Shown in pieces: positions 10,024 through 43,987 of a stretch of 64,000 nt of DNA; position 1 is the stretch's first letter, and each line of letters opens with the position of its first letter. The notes under the pieces were generated by a model, which saw nothing but the letters and a program-made list of their open reading frames with translations, made no database searches and was not told the DNA's origin. This stretch comes from Bacteroidota bacterium (GTDB lineage: Bacteria > Bacteroidota > Bacteroidia > B-17B0 > Aurantibacillaceae): the NCBI GenBank assembly GCA_018267475.1, contig JAFDYI010000023.1, positions 1 to 64,000 on the forward strand. Direction: 5' to 3'. Position numbers and translations under genes: made by a program.

Positions 10024-11886
10024 TCACGCCTTTGTTTTTTCTTCTACTCTTACCACCGTACCTTGTTTAATTTCAGAATGAATACTTATATCAAAATTTA
10101 TTTCATTAGCCCTATAGCGCATATTACCAAGCCCGCTATTCCAATTTACTTGGTTCATATCAAACCCTATCCCATTATCTACAATTTCTAACACAATCCT
10201 TTTGTTGCTATATAATGTAAAACTTACCTGGGTAGCGTTAGCGTGCTTAATGATGTTTTGAATAATCTCTTGAACTATGCGGTACAAGTTTAAACTAACA
10301 GAAGGGTTAAGGTATTGTACCGTTGTAATATCCTCAATATAAGTAACTTTTATACTCGCGTTTTTCAATAATTGTTTATCCGTATATGTTTTTAAAAAGA
10401 AAAAAAACTGTTGCCCGGATACTGTTTTTGTTTTTAATATCCATACAGTTTCTCGTAGCGTGCTCATTATGCTTTCTGCATTTACACGCAACTCTTTTAT
10501 TTCCGGCTGATAATGGGCAGGTAAATTGGATTCAATAGAATCAATTTGCGCCAAAAGAGACGTAGTGTATGCCCCCATATTATCATGCAAATCTCTGGCT
10601 ATGCGCTCTCGTTCTTGGTTTTCTGCCTCAAAAACAGCTTTATTTACGTGCAGTTGTTGCTTATGTGTTTGTTTGGCTTGTTTAGTTTTGTATATAAAAT
10701 AAATGGTGGTTCCCATTAATACTAAAATAAGGGCTGCAATTAAAGCCATAAGCTCTTGCTGGTGTAGTTTTTGATTTTGTGTTTTTATTAGTTCGTCTTT
10801 TTTGTTCGTTTCGTATTCTATTTGCAATACTCCCATTTTAGTATTTAAGGTCATATTATTAATCTGTTGTTCAATAGCGTTCGCCGAATCTCCATATAAC
10901 ATAGCTGTTTTATAGTCTTTTTGCGTTTTAAAAAAAGAGTACATCTGCATGTAACAACCGCGCAATTCTCTTTTAATATTATATTGTTTTAAGAGGCTAA
11001 TAGCGCCTTGATAAGTTTGTATAGCCAGCATTTTATCGCCTTTGTAAGCATATATATCAGCTAAGGCAATTAAATTAACCCCCATATTTTTTTTGTCATG
11101 GATGATGGAGTCTATACGGTATGATTTTTTAAAATATACTAAGGCAGAATCTGTTTTTTGCAATGTAAAAAAGCAAGTTGCTTTATTATTATAAAAGGGA
11201 CTTAGCAATATCAAGTGTTTAACACTCGATAAATGGGTAATCATATTATCGTCGATGAGTAAAGCGCTATCTATTTGCCCTAATTCTCCATACAAATTAG
11301 CGAGCAGATGATACGACACGGCATTGTCCACAGTAAAATTATTTTTTACGATATCTCTAAACCATTGCTTTGCTTGATTAAAATCTCCTTTCAATAAAAA
11401 AATATTAGCGATATTAACTTTAACACGATTAACAGATGCAGTTAAACGATGTTTTTCATAAACCGTTAAGGCTCTAAGATTAGCCTGAATAGCTTCAGGA
11501 TAATTTCCGGTATTTTTGTAGGTTTGCGCTATACCGACGTCTGATTTTGACACAAGAGTGTCTAAGTCCGGCCTTAGTCTTACTGATTTTTGTGCTTTGA
11601 GATAATAGTCTTGGCTCGTTTTATATTCGCTTATACGTGAAAATAAATTTCCTTTTAAGTGATTTGATAACCAGTACAATCGGTCGTCTTGGTATAATAG
11701 GGATAGCGAGTCAACTTTATTTAAAAGGATAACGATAGAATCCGCTTCCCCGTTTTTAATATTTTCATATTGCAAATAGCAAGCATTAAATACTACATCA
11801 TTTTTGTTTTTTTGATTTGGTTCAACACAATTTCTAAAAAGAATAAGCAGTGTAAAAAAAAATACAGCCCGTAAAAAATAACTCAT
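10024..11886 (-). CDS. TPR-containing sensor histidine kinase (NarX/HisKA_3 type)
   Basis: 620 residues. The N-terminus is hydrophobic and ends in a possible lipobox (LILFRNC, Cys20). It is followed by a long helical region with TPR-type repeats (about 75-345), a transmembrane helix (378-399), a short coiled linker, the HisKA_3 dimerisation domain with phospho-acceptor His434 in RERIARDLHDN, and a C-terminal ATPase domain (N-box Asn544 in QEIIQNIIKHAN, G1 box DNGIGF at 570-575, G2 GLGNMR). The TPR part is probably periplasmic. Kinases of this type phosphorylate NarL-family regulators, and the only one in this module is at 15543, so they are likely partners. Signal unknown. The gene is preceded by a terminator, so it has its own promoter. 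Confidence 0.9.
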   Translation of the reverse strand: MSYFLRAVFFFTLLILFRNCVEPNQKNKNDVVFNACYLQYENIKNGEADSIVILLNKVDSLSLLYQDDRLYWLSNHLKGNLFSRISEYKTSQDYYLKAQKSVRLRPDLDTLVSKSDVGIAQTYKNTGNYPEAIQANLRALTVYEKHRLTASVNRVKVNIANIFLLKGDFNQAKQWFRDIVKNNFTVDNAVSYHLLANLYGELGQIDSALLIDDNMITHLSSVKHLILLSPFYNNKATCFFTLQKTDSALVYFKKSYRIDSIIHDKKNMGVNLIALADIYAYKGDKMLAIQTYQGAISLLKQYNIKRELRGCYMQMYSFFKTQKDYKTAMLYGDSANAIEQQINNMTLNTKMGVLQIEYETNKKDELIKTQNQKLHQQELMALIAALILVLMGTTIYFIYKTKQAKQTHKQQLHVNKAVFEAENQERERIARDLHDNMGAYTTSLLAQIDSIESNLPAHYQPEIKELRVNAESIMSTLRETVWILKTKTVSGQQFFFFLKTYTDKQLLKNASIKVTYIEDITTVQYLNPSVSLNLYRIVQEIIQNIIKHANATQVSFTLYSNKRIVLEIVDNGIGFDMNQVNWNSGLGNMRYRANEINFDISIHSEIKQGTVVRVEEKTKA

Positions 11887-11939
11887 TATCTGTTTTTGTT
11901 TGTATAGAACTTCTAATATTAAACCATTTTAAATGTAAA

Positions 11940-11974
11940 AAAAACGCTCCATTTTTTATATCTGGAGCGTTTTT
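11940..11974 (-). terminator. Terminator of the secreted-protein operon
   Basis: 12-bp perfect stem: AAAAACGCTCCA (11940-11951) against TGGAGCGTTTTT (11963-11974), read on the minus strand into a further run of T. It separates the T9SS repeat protein gene from the downstream kinase gene. Confidence 0.75.
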
Positions 11975-11995: not shown

Positions 11996-13849
11996 TTATT
12001 CAATAATAATTTTCTTAATTATTTTCTTAATTATTTTATTCCCCTCGTTATCAGCAATATATGCGTAATAAACACCTGGCGCTATGCCTTCTAAATTGCA
12101 ATCAAATATGGTATTACTTACATTCTTCTTTATTTGATTATAAATAGTCTGACCTAAGGTATTAACAATGGTGAATGTTACGTTTGTAGTTTGAGGCATT
12201 GTTACTACCGCATAAAATGCCCCATTATTTGGATTAGGATACACTGCAAATTCTACATTTCGTGCTTCATATTCCGAAATACCTAGACAAGTAGTAACGG
12301 TAACATTTACAGTGTTTTGATTGCTGCATCCGCTTACTGTATTGGTACCTATAACCGTATAAGTGGCACTCAAAGTTGGTGTAACGACAACCGTTGCGCT
12401 TGTTACGCTTCCTGCATTAGCACTCCATATATATGTATTGGCTCCGCTAGCAGTGAGGGTATCAGCCTGCGCCGTGCATATAGTACCGTTGCTTGCTACA
12501 GCTGTTACGCTTGGTAAGGCATTAACCGTAACATTAACTGTGCTTTGTCCTACACAACCATTAATGTCTGTACCTAACACAGTATATGTATCGCTTAGCA
12601 TAGGAGATATTGCTACAGATGAACTTGTTGCACTTCCTGCATTAGTGCTCCATATATATGAAATGGCACCGGTAGCTATTAGTGTATCAGCATGTGAAGC
12701 GCATATCGTGGAATTACTTATTGCAGCCATAACGGAAGGGATTGGGTTTACTACTATAGAAATAGTGTCTATTCCTTGGCAGTTATTCCCATCAGTACCT
12801 ACTACAGTATAAGTGGTTGTTGCCATCGGATTAACTATTGGCCCCGAGGGGGTATAACTATAAACGTTAGCTCCCGAAGGGCTAATGGTATAAGTATTTC
12901 CTGCACAAATAGTACCACTATTGGCGCTAATTACAGGGTTCGGATTTACGGTTACAGTAGTTACAACGGTATTAGTACATCCGGCAGCGTTAGCTCCCGT
13001 TATTGTGTATGAACTGGTTGTTGTAGGGGTTACTACGCTTGTGCCCGAGCTGTATGTGTATGTGGAAGCGCCGCCAGGCACCATCGTGTAAGTGCTACCA
13101 CTACATATAGCAGCACTGCTAACTGTAACGGTTGGTACCGCATTTACAACAATATATCCTGTTTTAACAACCGTATTACTACCGTTATAGTTTGTTGCAG
13201 TAAGCGTTACGTCGTAAACACCGGGTATATTGTAATTTACTGTTGGGGTTGCAACTGTAGATACGGAAGGAGTACCGGCAGTAAATATCCAGTTCCAGTT
13301 GGAAGGATTGTTTTGCGATACATCAGTAAAAACAACGGTGCTTCCTGCACAAATGGTGTTAGCATTTACCGTAAAGTCAGCCACGGGAGTTAAGGTAGTG
13401 CAATAGATGACTTTATCTAAAGAAAACCCATCGCCTGAACTACCCATATAGGCATAAAACTGAGGTGGAGTACCACAACTGCTATTATTCTGTACATCGG
13501 TAACAGCACCATCGGCTGCCCCCCCCATGTATGCAAAGTACTGAGGCGGTGTAGAACAAGTTGCGTTCGTTAATAAATCTGTATGAGCGCCATCAGCCAT
13601 ACCTCCCATATAAGCAAAAAACTGCGGAGGTGATGAGCAACTGGCTTGCACTAATGCATCTGTATGAGCGCCATCAGCCATTCCGCCCGTATAGGCAAAA
13701 AATTGTGATGGAACGGAACAACTGCTTTGAGTAAGTGCGTCTGTGTGCGCACCATCAGCCATTCCGCCATTATATTGCGAAAAAGCAAATAATGGAAACA
13801 TACAGAGCCATACATACAGCCATTTTTTATATGATGTTATTCTTATCAT
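11996..13849 (-). CDS. T9SS-exported cell-surface protein with 27-residue tandem repeats
   Basis: 617 residues. A signal peptide (ends FPLFAFSQ) is followed by four 27-residue repeats (about 26-133), each Y-x-GG-x-ADGA-x-TD then Cys then P-x-Q-F/Y-x-A, and a shorter fifth copy (YMGSSGDGFSLD). Next come a PKD-like domain (about 155-240, ending in the GVYDVTLTATN strand) and four Ig-like repeats of roughly 70-80 residues with a conserved C-A/S-G/H start and TTTYTV-x-GT strand. A type A T9SS sorting domain (YPNPNNGAFYA to the end) closes the protein. It should be exported by T9SS and attached to or released from the surface. It follows the FGE-like gene by 37 bp and is likely in one operon under the operator at 15379-15406. 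Function unknown; an adhesin is the natural guess. Confidence 0.85.
   Translation of the reverse strand: MIRITSYKKWLYVWLCMFPLFAFSQYNGGMADGAHTDALTQSSCSVPSQFFAYTGGMADGAHTDALVQASCSSPPQFFAYMGGMADGAHTDLLTNATCSTPPQYFAYMGGAADGAVTDVQNNSSCGTPPQFYAYMGSSGDGFSLDKVIYCTTLTPVADFTVNANTICAGSTVVFTDVSQNNPSNWNWIFTAGTPSVSTVATPTVNYNIPGVYDVTLTATNYNGSNTVVKTGYIVVNAVPTVTVSSAAICSGSTYTMVPGGASTYTYSSGTSVVTPTTTSSYTITGANAAGCTNTVVTTVTVNPNPVISANSGTICAGNTYTISPSGANVYSYTPSGPIVNPMATTTYTVVGTDGNNCQGIDTISIVVNPIPSVMAAISNSTICASHADTLIATGAISYIWSTNAGSATSSSVAISPMLSDTYTVLGTDINGCVGQSTVNVTVNALPSVTAVASNGTICTAQADTLTASGANTYIWSANAGSVTSATVVVTPTLSATYTVIGTNTVSGCSNQNTVNVTVTTCLGISEYEARNVEFAVYPNPNNGAFYAVVTMPQTTNVTFTIVNTLGQTIYNQIKKNVSNTIFDCNLEGIAPGVYYAYIADNEGNKIIKKIIKKIIIE
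12011..12037 (-). repeat. 12-bp tandem duplication at the 3' end of the T9SS protein gene
   Basis: A 12-bp unit (TTTCTTAATTAT on the plus strand) occurs twice in a row plus three bases of a third, encoding IIKKIIKK in the last strand of the sorting domain. Confidence 0.7.
13451..13774 (-). repeat. 81-bp coding tandem repeats (27 residues x 4)
   Basis: The reading frame repeats every 81 bp four times in the N-terminal part of the T9SS protein, with GGMADGAHTD nearly identical in units 1-3 and diverging in unit 4 (GGAADGAVTD). Confidence 0.85.
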
Positions 13850-13886: not shown

Positions 13887-15329
13887 TTATCTAACACCAC
13901 GCCCGCCAAGGCTTGAATAATGAGTAGTATTTGTATAGACATTATTTGCCCTATCTGATGTTCTTACATATGAAGCTCCATCTACATAACTGCCTCCGCG
14001 TAAGCCGGCGCCCAAACCAGTTGTAGCTGGCCAGTTGGCTTGATTGGCGTCACCTACTGCATTCAAGGTGCCATCGCCCAAAACACCTGTATAAGCTATG
14101 CCCTGTGCGTTCCCTGCCGAAACAACGTTTTCCCATAGGTTTCCTCCCATTTCCATAGCACCATAATAAGCAGCGCCCGCCGATGCCCGACCTGAAGAGT
14201 TAGTTGCAAAAATACCTACACGTAAAGGGCGGTAAGCCGGATTGGCGGTACCATAATCACACATTCCATTAGCCACAGCATTAGTGTAAGTTTCGGTTGC
14301 TGTTAGTGGAGTAGCTAATGCTACGCCGCTATATATTTGAGTAATGGCCGTAGTTCCCCAAACGTATTCGCCAGCCACGGGTGCCATTGTTCCACGGCAT
14401 ACTTTTTCATACTCAAGTTCTGTCATAGGGCGTAAGGCTGCCCAATCTAAATAAGCGTTAACATCTGAACTGGTTAAAAAGCCGCATGCAATATTTTGCC
14501 CATCGTTTGAATTGTTTAAAACGCCATCGTGCGTTACATCACAAGCAAAAATGGCCGGAACGGTATTGTTAAATCCTGAAGTGCCAATAACAATACCACT
14601 GCCGCTGGCATTAGAAAAAGCGTAGGTGCCAGATGCAGAAATAGGATCGGAAATAACTCTTGTTTTTTGTTGGTCATAGGTTAAGGTGTTTAAAAACTCA
14701 ACATATTGTTCTTGAGTAATTTCGTACTTCATACAATAAAAACTATTGTATCCGGTAGGGTAAGAAGACGATACCCCTGGTGATGAGCCACCTAAAGCGG
14801 CCGCTGTAATACCTCCTGACTGAGAAGAGGCTGTAACCGTATAGGTATTAAAAGTACTAGACGATGTTCCATCACCTAATACAAAATTACCTTGTGGCAC
14901 ATTAACCATTTCAATACCAAAAACTTTAAAATTATAAGCACCAGCGGGCATCGTCATTTTTAATGATACAGCCACGCTACCGGTACTGCCTCCGCCGGCA
15001 GCACTGCGACGAATAAATACTCCTTTGCCATCGGTAACAGCATCAACTTGTAATGGTGATCCTGCAGTGTGATCAGCACTAATTGTACTTAAAGGCGCCT
15101 GATACCATTGCTTCGTTGCGCAATCTTGATATTTAATAAATACCCAAGCCGCATCCCAATTACTAGGAGCGACGCTGGCATTCCAACTGTTATCCCAACT
15201 GATGTTAAAACTTACTACCGAGCCTGTTGCAGCGGTTCCACTAATTTGAATGTTATTTGCCTTAACGTCTGTAGCTGTTACAGCTAACAAACCTGCAATA
15301 CAACTCATTGTTTTGAAGATTTTTTTCAT
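13887..15329 (-). CDS. Secreted FGE/SUMF1-fold protein, catalytic cysteines absent
   Basis: 480 residues with a signal peptide (MKKIFKTMSCIAGLLAVTATDVKA). Residues 25-140 form a beta-rich domain; 140-480 match the formylglycine-generating enzyme (SUMF1/EgtB/PvdO) fold: YCMKYEITQEQYVEFLN, then MTELEYEKVCRG, GNLWENV, and LRGGSYVDGASYVR. In active FGE the last segment carries two cysteines (GGSW-x-C-x4-C); here the equivalent positions appear to be Asp449 and Val454, and the usual GFRC end reads GGRGVR. So it probably lacks FGE chemistry and uses the C-type-lectin-like fold for binding or structure. No T9SS sorting domain is seen. First gene of the operon controlled from 15354-15406. Confidence 0.85.
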   Translation of the reverse strand: MKKIFKTMSCIAGLLAVTATDVKANNIQISGTAATGSVVSFNISWDNSWNASVAPSNWDAAWVFIKYQDCATKQWYQAPLSTISADHTAGSPLQVDAVTDGKGVFIRRSAAGGGSTGSVAVSLKMTMPAGAYNFKVFGIEMVNVPQGNFVLGDGTSSSTFNTYTVTASSQSGGITAAALGGSSPGVSSSYPTGYNSFYCMKYEITQEQYVEFLNTLTYDQQKTRVISDPISASGTYAFSNASGSGIVIGTSGFNNTVPAIFACDVTHDGVLNNSNDGQNIACGFLTSSDVNAYLDWAALRPMTELEYEKVCRGTMAPVAGEYVWGTTAITQIYSGVALATPLTATETYTNAVANGMCDYGTANPAYRPLRVGIFATNSSGRASAGAAYYGAMEMGGNLWENVVSAGNAQGIAYTGVLGDGTLNAVGDANQANWPATTGLGAGLRGGSYVDGASYVRTSDRANNVYTNTTHYSSLGGRGVR

Positions 15330-15353: not shown

Positions 15354-15361
15354 CAAAAATA
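15354..15361 (-). promoter_or_regulatory. -7 box of the FGE-like/T9SS operon
   Basis: TATTTTTG on the minus strand, 32 bp from the ATG at 15329. No TTTG at -33; instead the palindromic operator sits upstream with its centre 31.5 bp from the first T. Confidence 0.6.
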
Positions 15362-15378: not shown

Positions 15379-15406
15379 ATAAAATACTCATTAAGGAGTA
15401 TTTTAT
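15379..15406. promoter_or_regulatory. Operator 1 of the NarL-type regulator
   Basis: Inverted repeat with 11-bp arms: ATAAAATACTC, six bases, GAGTATTTTAT. Its core TACTCAT-TA-AGGAGTA has the 7-2-7 geometry of NarL sites, and both heptamers fit the TACYYMT consensus. It serves the minus-strand operon starting at 15329. Confidence 0.8.
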
Positions 15407-15487
15407 TGACGCAACTAGATAAAGCAAACAACTTTACTGCTACAATATAGCGCTCCGCATTTTTCAACTTTTTAAAGTTATGAAATG

Positions 15488-15507
15488 AAAATACTCTAAA
15501 ATGAGTA
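15488..15507. promoter_or_regulatory. Operator 2, in front of the response regulator gene
   Basis: AAAATACTC, six bases, GAGTA (left arm identical to operators 1 and 3; right arm conserved over five bases). Right heptamer reads TACTCAT on the opposite strand. Its centre (15499.5) is 31.5 bp from the first base of the -7 box at 15531. Confidence 0.75.
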
Positions 15508-15530
15508 CAGTTTGTTTTTACAGAAAGATA

Positions 15531-15538
15531 TACCTTTG
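15531..15538 (+). promoter_or_regulatory. -7 box of the response regulator
   Basis: TACCTTTG, first T 12 bp before the GTG start at 15543, predicting a leaderless transcript. Confidence 0.6.
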
Positions 15539-15542
15539 GCAA

Positions 15543-16202
15543 GTGGATATTAACATCGGCATAGTAGATGATAAAACGATAAATCGTAATACCGTTAAAC
15601 ATAAGTTAGCGCTCTACTCCCAAATAAATATTGTACTTGAAGCAAATAATGGTAAAGATTTTTTAGAGCAGTTAAAAAATATCCCCGACAAAAAAAAACC
15701 AAAACTAATTTTAATGGATTTAGATATGCCGATTATGGATGGCATCGAGGCTATTAAAGTTTCTGCAGCGGCATACCCAGAAATTAAAATTATTGTACTA
15801 ACTATATTTGAAGACACGGATCGTATTTTTGAAGCTATAAAAGCGGGTGCAAGCGGGTATTTATTGAAAGATGATAAAGCTGTAAACATCATGGACGCAA
15901 TCACTAATGTTATTGAGCATAATGGGGTTCCGATGAGCCCTACAATTGCTCGAAAAGCAATGGAAATGCTTATTAACAAACCAATCACAAAAAAAACAGA
16001 AGAAAACACACTGGGCTTATCCGAAAGAGAATTAGAAATTTTAAAAAATCTATCTAGTGGAAGTACTTACAGTCAAATTGGGGAAAAACTTTTTATTAGC
16101 CCTTTAACCGTGCGAAAACATGTAGCTAATTTATACGCTAAACTTCATGTCAATAATCGGGTGCAGGTAATTAATATCGCACAAAAAAATAATTTGATTT
16201 AA
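15543..16202 (+). CDS. NarL/FixJ-family response regulator
   Basis: 219 residues. A receiver domain (VDD at 8-10, phospho-acceptor Asp59 in LMDLDMPIMDG, conserved Lys in GYLLKDD) is followed by a LuxR-type helix-turn-helix (LSERELEILKNLSSG to the end, with SPLTVRKHVANLYAKL as recognition region). Such proteins activate transcription as dimers on inverted repeats once phosphorylated by HisKA_3 kinases; the kinase at 10024 is the probable donor. The frame is open to ATG 15501, but that would lie upstream of the promoter; GTG 15543 gives the normal receiver start (MDINIGIVDD). Operator 2 in its promoter implies autoregulation. Confidence 0.9.
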   Translation: MDINIGIVDDKTINRNTVKHKLALYSQINIVLEANNGKDFLEQLKNIPDKKKPKLILMDLDMPIMDGIEAIKVSAAAYPEIKIIVLTIFEDTDRIFEAIKAGASGYLLKDDKAVNIMDAITNVIEHNGVPMSPTIARKAMEMLINKPITKKTEENTLGLSERELEILKNLSSGSTYSQIGEKLFISPLTVRKHVANLYAKLHVNNRVQVINIAQKNNLI

Positions 16203-16213
16203 AGCATAGTAAT

Positions 16214-16235
16214 AAAATACTCTATAGAGAGTATT
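16214..16235. promoter_or_regulatory. Operator 3, in front of the second T9SS gene
   Basis: AAAATACTC, six bases (TATAGA), GAGTATT. It lies in the 76-bp gap after the response regulator. The centre (16225.5) is 31.5 bp from the -7 box at 16257. Confidence 0.78.
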
Positions 16236-16256
16236 GGGATTTATTTCTATACAGCC

Positions 16257-16265
16257 AATCTTTGC
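16257..16265 (+). promoter_or_regulatory. Weak -7 box of the second T9SS gene
   Basis: AATCTTTGC: the TTTGC part is intact, but the leading TA is AA. No -33 TTTG, so activation from operator 3 is plausible. ATG follows at 16279. Confidence 0.5.
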
Positions 16266-16278
16266 AAAAAAAAACGTA

Positions 16279-18039
16279 ATGAAAAAAACAATACTTCTAT
16301 TTTTGTTAGCGCCCATTATAAATTACGCGCAAAACTTTGGTTGGTTTAAGCAATTTAAAAATGACGGCGGTATAACAGCCATTTACAATCATGGCGCTAG
16401 TGTTAATCATAATAATGAGATTGTAAGTTGTGGGCTTATTACAAGTGGATTAGCTAGCGGTATAGGCGAAGACTTTGATCCGGGATCAGCTACACACGAT
16501 GTGTTTCCAATAGGCACAGCGGCCTATAATATTTGGGTAAGCAAGCTGGATTCTAACGGAAACTATATGTGGCTAAGCAATTTTGCAGTAAACAATGATG
16601 GGGTAGGGCAAGTGTTTGCTAAACAAAATGGTGCCGGCGAAGTTTTTGTTGCCGGGCGGTTTAACCAAACAGCCGATTTTGACCCAGGCACAGGAACTTA
16701 TACGATGACTAGCGTTGCCATATCAGCAGGAGATAACGGTTTTTATGCTAAACTAAATAATGATGGAACTTTTGCTTGGGCAAAACAGCTTACAGCTATA
16801 CCGGGACAGACCTTGTTTTCTGATATTGAAATAGATAATCAAGGAAACCTTTTTTTAATTGGCCAATACCAATCGGGTTATTTTATGGCAAAAATAAATG
16901 GCAGCACTGGAAATACTATATGGACAAAAAAAATAACCAGCAGTTATGCTAAATTTTGCGCTCTTACAATAGATAAGTCGGCTAACTTACTAGTTTTTGG
17001 ATATGTTTCAAGCAATTCTCCCGTTGATGTTGATCCAAGTACTACAGGTACATATACTATTTCCGGGTTAGGTTATTTTTCTAATTGCCCGTTTATTTTA
17101 AAATTAGATTCTGGTGGAAATTTTTTATGGGCAAAGCAATTTAATGATTACTCCAGCTCTTCAGCGTACAATTCCGTTAATCCTTCTGTTTGTAGTGATA
17201 TTCAGGCAGATAAGCAAAATAACATTTACGTGTCGGGACAAACAAGGATACCCATGGATTTTGATCCAAGCTCTGCGATAGATAGTCTTACTCCCAAAAA
17301 CAACAGTACTGATATTTACATTGTTTCATTGGACTCGAACGGAAATCATAAATGGGCAAAAATGTACGGCGGCTCTGCTAACGATTATACTACGCGCTTG
17401 TTGATAGGTAATAATAATGATGTTTACATACCTACAGAAATGGCATCATACAGTTATGATATTGATTTTGACCCTGGGGTAGGAACCTATACAGTGCCTT
17501 ATTCTTATTTTGGCGCAAACACCAATATGGCGTTAAATCATTTAACAACAAATGGTAATTTTTTGTCCGTAAGTTTTTTTGTATCTAATTACAACAACGA
17601 CAATGATATTATGAATGGGCTTGCCTTAACAAGCGGTGGCAACATCATTGCCACTGGCGAGTATAATGTAGGAAATAGCGGAAATTATTGGGTTGATTTT
17701 GACCCAGGTCCAGGCACATCTAATCAAATGGGAGGGAATATTTTTATTTTAAAATTATTAAGCGATGCTACCAGTGGTATCGTCATAAATCAAGAGGCAA
17801 TTTCTAGTTTTCAAATTTATCCCAACCCGGCGCAAAAAAACATTTGGATTTCTAACAAAACAAACGATAAAGCAAATTCAAAATTATATATAGTTAATAT
17901 GCTTGGTGAAATGGTATATACCCAAATGCTACAACAGGAAAGCCAAGAAATAAATATAAGTTTTTTACCTGCTGGCAGTTATTTTCTAAAATTAGAAAAT
18001 ATAAATGGAGTAGTTTGTAAAAAGCTTATTAAAGAATAA
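16279..18039 (+). CDS. T9SS-exported beta-propeller-like surface protein
   Basis: 586 residues. Signal peptide MKKTILLFLLAPIINYAQ, then about 500 residues of repeats that alternate a D-FDPG-x-G-T-Y segment with strands such as WVSKLDSNGNYMWLSNF and FILKLDSGGNFLWAKQF. This is the pattern of SBBP-like/delta-60-like beta-propeller proteins. A type A T9SS sorting domain (FQIYPNPAQKNIWI to KKLIKE) ends it. The frame is open to 16234, but the signal peptide fixes ATG 16279. Controlled from operator 3, so likely a target of the adjacent response regulator. Binding partner unknown. Confidence 0.85.
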   Translation: MKKTILLFLLAPIINYAQNFGWFKQFKNDGGITAIYNHGASVNHNNEIVSCGLITSGLASGIGEDFDPGSATHDVFPIGTAAYNIWVSKLDSNGNYMWLSNFAVNNDGVGQVFAKQNGAGEVFVAGRFNQTADFDPGTGTYTMTSVAISAGDNGFYAKLNNDGTFAWAKQLTAIPGQTLFSDIEIDNQGNLFLIGQYQSGYFMAKINGSTGNTIWTKKITSSYAKFCALTIDKSANLLVFGYVSSNSPVDVDPSTTGTYTISGLGYFSNCPFILKLDSGGNFLWAKQFNDYSSSSAYNSVNPSVCSDIQADKQNNIYVSGQTRIPMDFDPSSAIDSLTPKNNSTDIYIVSLDSNGNHKWAKMYGGSANDYTTRLLIGNNNDVYIPTEMASYSYDIDFDPGVGTYTVPYSYFGANTNMALNHLTTNGNFLSVSFFVSNYNNDNDIMNGLALTSGGNIIATGEYNVGNSGNYWVDFDPGPGTSNQMGGNIFILKLLSDATSGIVINQEAISSFQIYPNPAQKNIWISNKTNDKANSKLYIVNMLGEMVYTQMLQQESQEINISFLPAGSYFLKLENINGVVCKKLIKE

Positions 18040-43339: not shown

Positions 43340-43987
43340 ATGAAACCGAAAATAAAAATACTGATTGTAGATGACCACCAGATATTTATAGATGGATTAA
43401 AAGCCTTGCTGCAGCAAGAAGATGAAATACAAATTGTGGGGCAAGCGCTAAATGGAGAAGATGCCCTATTGGCCCTGCAAGAAACCACTACCGACCTTTT
43501 AATTACCGACATTAGCATGCCGGGTATGAGTGGGATAAAACTAACTCAGAAAGTAAAAGAAAAATATCCTGAAATAAAAGTATTGGTAATATCGATGCAC
43601 AACGACCGCGAAATAGTAAGTGAAATTTTACTGGCTGAAGCCGATGGTTATATCTTAAAAAATGCAAACCGTGCCGATTTAATGGATGCCGTAAGCAAAA
43701 TAGCCGACCACGGTACCTACTACAGCAAAGAGATTTTAGCCATTATGCTAGAGCGTGTAAAACGAGGAAAAAAGCAAGAAGATAAAGCCCAACTACTATC
43801 GCCGCGCGAAACGGAAATTGTAAAACTTATTATGCAAGAAAACTCCAGCGAACAAATAGCCCAAAAACTGTTTATAAGCAAAGGAACCGTTGATACCCAT
43901 AGAAAAAATATATTAGAAAAATTGCAAATAAAAACCTTAGTAGGTTTATGTAAGTTTGCTTTTCAAAATCACTTAGATTCGTTGTAA
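43340..43987 (+). CDS. NarL/FixJ-family response regulator
   Basis: 215 residues. Receiver with Asp11-Asp12, phospho-acceptor Asp57 (LLITDISMPGMSG) and conserved Lys (GYILKNA), followed by a LuxR-type helix-turn-helix (LSPRETEIVKLIMQENSSE, SKGTVDTHRKNILEKL). Cognate of the kinase 6 bp upstream. It differs in sequence from the regulator at 15543, so it should recognise different sites. Converges with bshA, 7 bp between the stop codons. Confidence 0.93.
   Translation: MKPKIKILIVDDHQIFIDGLKALLQQEDEIQIVGQALNGEDALLALQETTTDLLITDISMPGMSGIKLTQKVKEKYPEIKVLVISMHNDREIVSEILLAEADGYILKNANRADLMDAVSKIADHGTYYSKEILAIMLERVKRGKKQEDKAQLLSPRETEIVKLIMQENSSEQIAQKLFISKGTVDTHRKNILEKLQIKTLVGLCKFAFQNHLDSL

Follow-up and report, generated by a model that had tools for sequence, protein, structure and literature searches.

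In Escherichia coli, a single NarL site of the 7-2-7 type, just upstream of the -35 element, is enough for activation. The ogt1052 promoter carries such a site at -44.5, 32 bp upstream of the -10 element, and drives NarL/NarP-dependent transcription that is poorly coupled to nitrate, and the natural yeaR-yoaG promoter has one next to its -35 element (PMC7419079, PMC9314961). In Bacteroidota, two-component control has been tied to type IX secretion in Porphyromonas gingivalis, where PorX/PorY, together with the sigma factor SigP, controls genes for the T9SS machinery (PMC4800418, PMC8265659). The system described here shares that tie and differs in having a NarL-type regulator, genes for cargo-like proteins and sigma-A promoters. 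Regulators of the VraR/LiaR type have the same domain order as the one studied here, and VraR (5hev) is its best match among solved structures (E 4e-31), but they belong to another phylum and another promoter type. VraR and LiaR operators also have other arm sequences.

The locus lies in a 64-kb stretch of DNA, hereafter the window, and is centred on a regulator gene starting at 15543. Its product has an N-terminal receiver domain (PF00072, E 6e-20) and a C-terminal GerE/LuxR helix-turn-helix (PF00196, E 2e-16) in Pfam. The phosphorylation residues D9, D10, D59, T87 and K109 are all present and are invariant among three aligned orthologues. It resembles E. coli NarL in combining a receiver with a LuxR-type helix-turn-helix and in being associated with 7-2-7 inverted heptamers of equal arms and distance, and these domains, heptamers and the distance known from published NarL promoters together support the NarL-type reading of the original prediction. 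The NarL protein itself is only distantly related (1a04, E 8e-20), and it acts at sigma-70 promoters in nitrate respiration, whereas the promoters here are of the Bacteroidota sigma-A type (TAnnTTTG) and belong to genes for exported and T9SS proteins, with a TPR-sensor kinase nearby. Given the TPR N-terminus of this kinase and the exported targets, the protein is not classed as an orthologue of the nitrate regulator NarL. No earlier description of this layout in Bacteroidota was found in the literature searched, which subscription journals mostly lie outside.

Table 1. Features of the regulator locus, in window coordinates.
Feature	Position	Strand	Sequence or domains	Remarks
TPR histidine kinase	10024-11886	minus	HisKA_3 PF07730, HATPase_c PF02518	
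Terminator-like hairpin	11937-11971	minus	AACGCTCC...GGAGCGTT + T run	between operon and kinase gene
PKD-domain protein with T9SS sorting tail	11996-13849	minus	PF18911, PF18962	second gene behind operator 1
FGE-sulfatase-like exported protein	13887-15329	minus	PF03781	first gene behind operator 1
-7 box 1	15354-15361	minus	TATTTTTG	first base 15361
Operator 1	15379-15406		ATAAAATACTC-ATTAAG-GAGTATTTTAT	inverted repeat, perfect 11-bp arms; centre 15392.5; predicted to serve the minus-strand FGE-like operon
Operator 2	15488-15509		AATACTC-N6-GAGTACA	centre 15499.5; predicted to serve the regulator gene itself
-7 box 2	15531-15538	plus	TACCTTTG	first base 15531
Response regulator, NarL/LuxR-type	15543-16202	plus	receiver + GerE HTH	GTG start
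Operator 3	16214-16235		AATACTC-N6-GAGTATT	centre 16225.5; G next, giving TTG 20 bp before box
-7 box 3	16257-16264	plus	AATCTTTG	first base 16257
Exported protein with T9SS C-terminal sorting domain	16273-18039	plus	PF18962 (E 9e-16)	frame from 16273; first ATG a few codons downstream

Three TACTC-N6-GAGTA cores lie inside 850 bp, and the claim that all three palindromes stand at one fixed distance was confirmed, with exactly 31.5 bp between the operator centre and the first base of the -7 box at each site. The boxes were also correctly placed, but the third is not a TAnnTTTG, as an A replaces the first T in this one departure. The exact 14-position palindrome AATACTC-N6-GAGTATT was found twice, against 0.0006 copies expected in 64 kb at the window's composition, and the third window copy has two changes. 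As predicted, the 64-kb window holds no other exact palindrome, and a one-mismatch copy within the kinase gene (10826-10845) has no box. The two heptamers of site 1, TACTCAT-TA-AGGAGTA, with 2 bp between them, are both perfect matches to TACYYMT, as had been claimed; at sites 2 and 3, TACTC is kept in both arms and the inner positions depart from TACYYMT. Behind operator 1, the PKD gene starts 37 bp after the FGE-like gene. Membership of the kinase gene in the same operon is weakened by the strong terminator-like hairpin between the PKD and kinase genes (fold -16.1 kcal/mol, z -6.8), and the kinase is therefore probably a separate unit, though it is likely to be the partner of the 15543 regulator.

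The original prediction had pointed to the whole genome for further sites, and pattern searches were performed for the operator followed by 21 bp and TAnnTTTG, allowing up to 3 mismatches in 20 positions. Four genome sites were recovered, namely the three window sites and C4:35326, against none in the genome for the reversed-pattern control; the only other match was site 3 read on the opposite strand. The C4:35326 site, AATTCTC-N6-GAGTAGT (AATTCTCTATAAAGAGTAGT), stands before a perfect box, TATTTTTG, and precedes the gene for a weakly CAP-like protein of 200 aa with a signal-peptide-like start. The genome contains five TACTC-N6-GAGTA cores, two of which (C8:11648 and C24:94255) were set aside, having no -7 box at the distance.

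The three closest orthologues of the regulator are those of G007 (Sediminibacterium sp. MAG03; 73% identical), G056 (SZAS-4; 71%) and SZAS-36 (64%), and conservation in relatives, on which the original prediction had been made to depend, was borne out in those that keep the regulator. The palindromes before the three regulator genes, AATACTCCATAACGAGTATA in G007, AATAGTCGTTTTCGAGTATT in G056 and AATACTCCTTTTTGGGTATT in SZAS-36, are each centred 31.5 bp from a box (GATTTTTG, TATTTTTA and AATATTTG, respectively), and each box is one base off TAnnTTTG. The predicted self-regulation is thereby supported from sequence, as the regulator gene has its palindrome at the same place in the orthologues too. 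In G007 and G056 the gene immediately upstream of the regulator's orthologue encodes a homologous kinase, and in SZAS-36 the kinase found there is of the propeller type. G056 possesses five further sites with zero mismatch over 20 fixed positions, where about 0.00003 are expected, and these precede genes for predicted exported or outer-membrane proteins, two of these being an OmpA/PD40 protein and a BNR protein with a T9SS tail. The second site of G007 has two mismatches and is followed by a short open frame only. In SZAS-36, clear additional sites at 31.5 bp are few, and one perfect palindrome stands at 30.5 bp. Autoregulation of this kind does not appear to be the rule among NarL-type regulators of the family, since none of 59 regulator upstream regions combines a perfect box with a palindrome at 31.5 bp, suggesting that it is particular to the present group. 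Among more distant regulators, a 39% identical regulator gene in G009 (L036:1445-1492) is preceded by TATACGAATAAATTCGTATT, 30.5 bp before TAATTTTA; the layout is the same with another arm sequence, and the arms may diverge with the regulator. A further palindrome, AATACTGCATATGCAGTATT, lies directly after a 52% identical regulator gene and before the next gene (L130:6732-6751).

An unbiased scan of 87 genomes of the family was performed with CAAANNTA-N{13,33}-TACYC-N6-GRGTA, which covers 21 gaps. At gap 22 or 23 lie 53 of the 64 TACYC-N6-GRGTA sites (30 at gap 23, 23 at gap 22, and 11 at the other 19 gaps together), a peak that occurs in many genera, although matches from one genus are not independent and the binomial p values are indicative only. 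The reversed control gave 11 matches over all gaps. Genus g7 has 18 of its 20 gap 22-23 sites at gap 22, a one-base operator shift by lineage, and other genera have mostly gap 23. Elsewhere in the class (about 285 further genomes), 53 of 93 sites lie at gaps 22-23, mostly as TACCC, or 39 of 79 when two genomes with seven copies each are left out. In G208 and G267 (L178, L179 and L181), seven copies per genome of a TACCCA-N4-TGGGTA...GGATTGGGTATGTTTG promoter precede genes that by eye encode intracellular, defence-like proteins (nuclease-like, SIR2-like and CopG-like); with the same spacing and another kind of target, these repeats may mark gene cassettes that share one promoter.

The TACTC form tracks the 15543-type orthologue, with seven sites at gap 23 in the three family genomes that have the orthologue versus three in the 84 that do not, and the TACCC form dominates overall. 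As many genomes that lack a close orthologue carry TACCC-N6-GGGTA at this gap, other regulators appear to use the same layout, and the presence across genomes of regulators 42-50% identical to 15543 coincides only in part with that of TACCC sites. The proteins behind a TACCC site of G049 (L091) and a TACTC site of G056 (L122) look alike by eye, both with lipoprotein starts and the same motif order, which suggests a change of operator in front of a retained target.

If several proteins recognise such sites, the palindrome could belong to a different regulator, either NarL-type or a dimeric factor of another kind, with the 15543 gene also under its control, and the window does encode a second NarL-type response regulator (43352-43975, in the stretch 43340-43978; 36% identical to 15543). 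This explanation is unlikely, given that the TACTC form follows the orthologue across the family and precedes the regulator gene in each of the four genomes, and that no such operator is present at the sigma-A box TATCTTTG (43294) upstream of the second regulator. The link between the sites and the 15543 protein rests on this co-occurrence with orthologues in four genomes and on the autoregulatory placement.

The base just outside the downstream arm bears on how such a regulator would act. At gap 23, G occupies this position on the promoter strand at 12 of the 29 sites in the family and at 16 of the 25 in the class, against an expectation of about 20%; within this regulator group it does so at 7 of 13, among them site 3. 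A G at this position turns TATT into TATTG and thereby places a TTG 20 bp ahead of the box. About half of the group's sites carry a TTG 19-20 bp ahead of their box. The left flank of the operators shows no enrichment of the mirrored base, and the G therefore appears to be selected for the -33 TTG that it creates. The original prediction had held that no TTTG -33 element is present and that the activator replaces -33 recognition. The first part stands for TTTG (the one at site 2 lies 16 bp before the box), but with a TTG at -33 at site 3 and in many relatives, the second holds only in part: the predicted activator would abut or share the -33 region rather than simply replace it, and may replace it at sites 1 and 2.

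An operator that touches -33 could also be read as the seat of a repressor, the 15543 dimer blocking RNA polymerase there, and with a TTG in about half of the sites some promoters may work without an activator. Repressors, however, tolerate variable positions, whereas exact phasing at 31.5 (or 30.5) bp and a gap histogram confined to two values suit an activator that touches RNA polymerase, and NarL activates from the same place (PMC7419079, PMC9314961). Repression is thus unlikely. Chance clustering of AT-rich palindromes can be dismissed: a bare palindrome search at 3 mismatches is uninformative, being barely above shuffles (6 in the window versus 3.5), but the exact and spaced forms exceed chance by a wide margin, with 0.03 exact copies of AATACTC-N6-GAGTATT expected in the 2.76-Mb genome, and independent sites in other genomes refute it.

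Taken as a whole, the preferred explanation, with a probability of roughly 85%, is a chain from kinase to regulator to an operator at fixed distance, leading to activation of the regulator's own gene and of genes for exported proteins. The TPR histidine kinase would phosphorylate the 15543 regulator, which would then bind TACTC-N6-GAGTA as a dimer on NarL-like 7-2-7 inverted heptamers. The operator centre would lie 31.5 bp from the first base of the -7 box and some 43.5 bp ahead of the point where transcription starts; with the bases of the box placed at -12 to -5 (PMC6847099), it falls at -43.5 or -44.5. The downstream half-site would abut or overlap the -33 region, and the bound regulator would recruit Bacteroidota sigma-A RNA polymerase to intrinsically weak promoters. 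The predicted targets are its own gene, the FGE-like/PKD operon, the T9SS-tailed 16273 gene and at least one distant gene for an exported protein, and most targets encode exported proteins. The sites, their spacing, their conservation and the class of target are established by computation; from these we infer binding, its dependence on phosphorylation, activation rather than repression, and the pairing of kinase and regulator.

The regulator transcript itself is probably leaderless, as its start codon lies 4 nt after the -7 box and Flavobacterium johnsoniae transcripts begin 4-5 nt after the box (PMC6847099); the same spacing of box and start codon is found in the G056 and SZAS-36 orthologues, for which the same is probable. 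Leaderless mRNAs are a minority type, since leaders exceed 10 nt in 87% of predicted F. johnsoniae transcripts and 5.5% of F. psychrophilum mRNAs are leaderless (PMC9723704).

Across the class Bacteroidia, the odds are about even that many NarL-type regulators activate sigma-A RNA polymerase from one rigid architecture, in which TACYC-type heptamers are centred 30.5 or 31.5 bp from TAnnTTTG and often share bases with a -33 TTG. The primary sigma factor of Bacteroidota is divergent and its -33 element weak, and little is known about the way activators cooperate with it; such an architecture, if true, would amount to a general activator grammar for promoters of the phylum. The fixed distance between operator and box in many genomes offers a rule, open to testing, by which regulons of the phylum could be predicted, and the finding connects two-component control with genes whose products are exported or T9SS-tailed.
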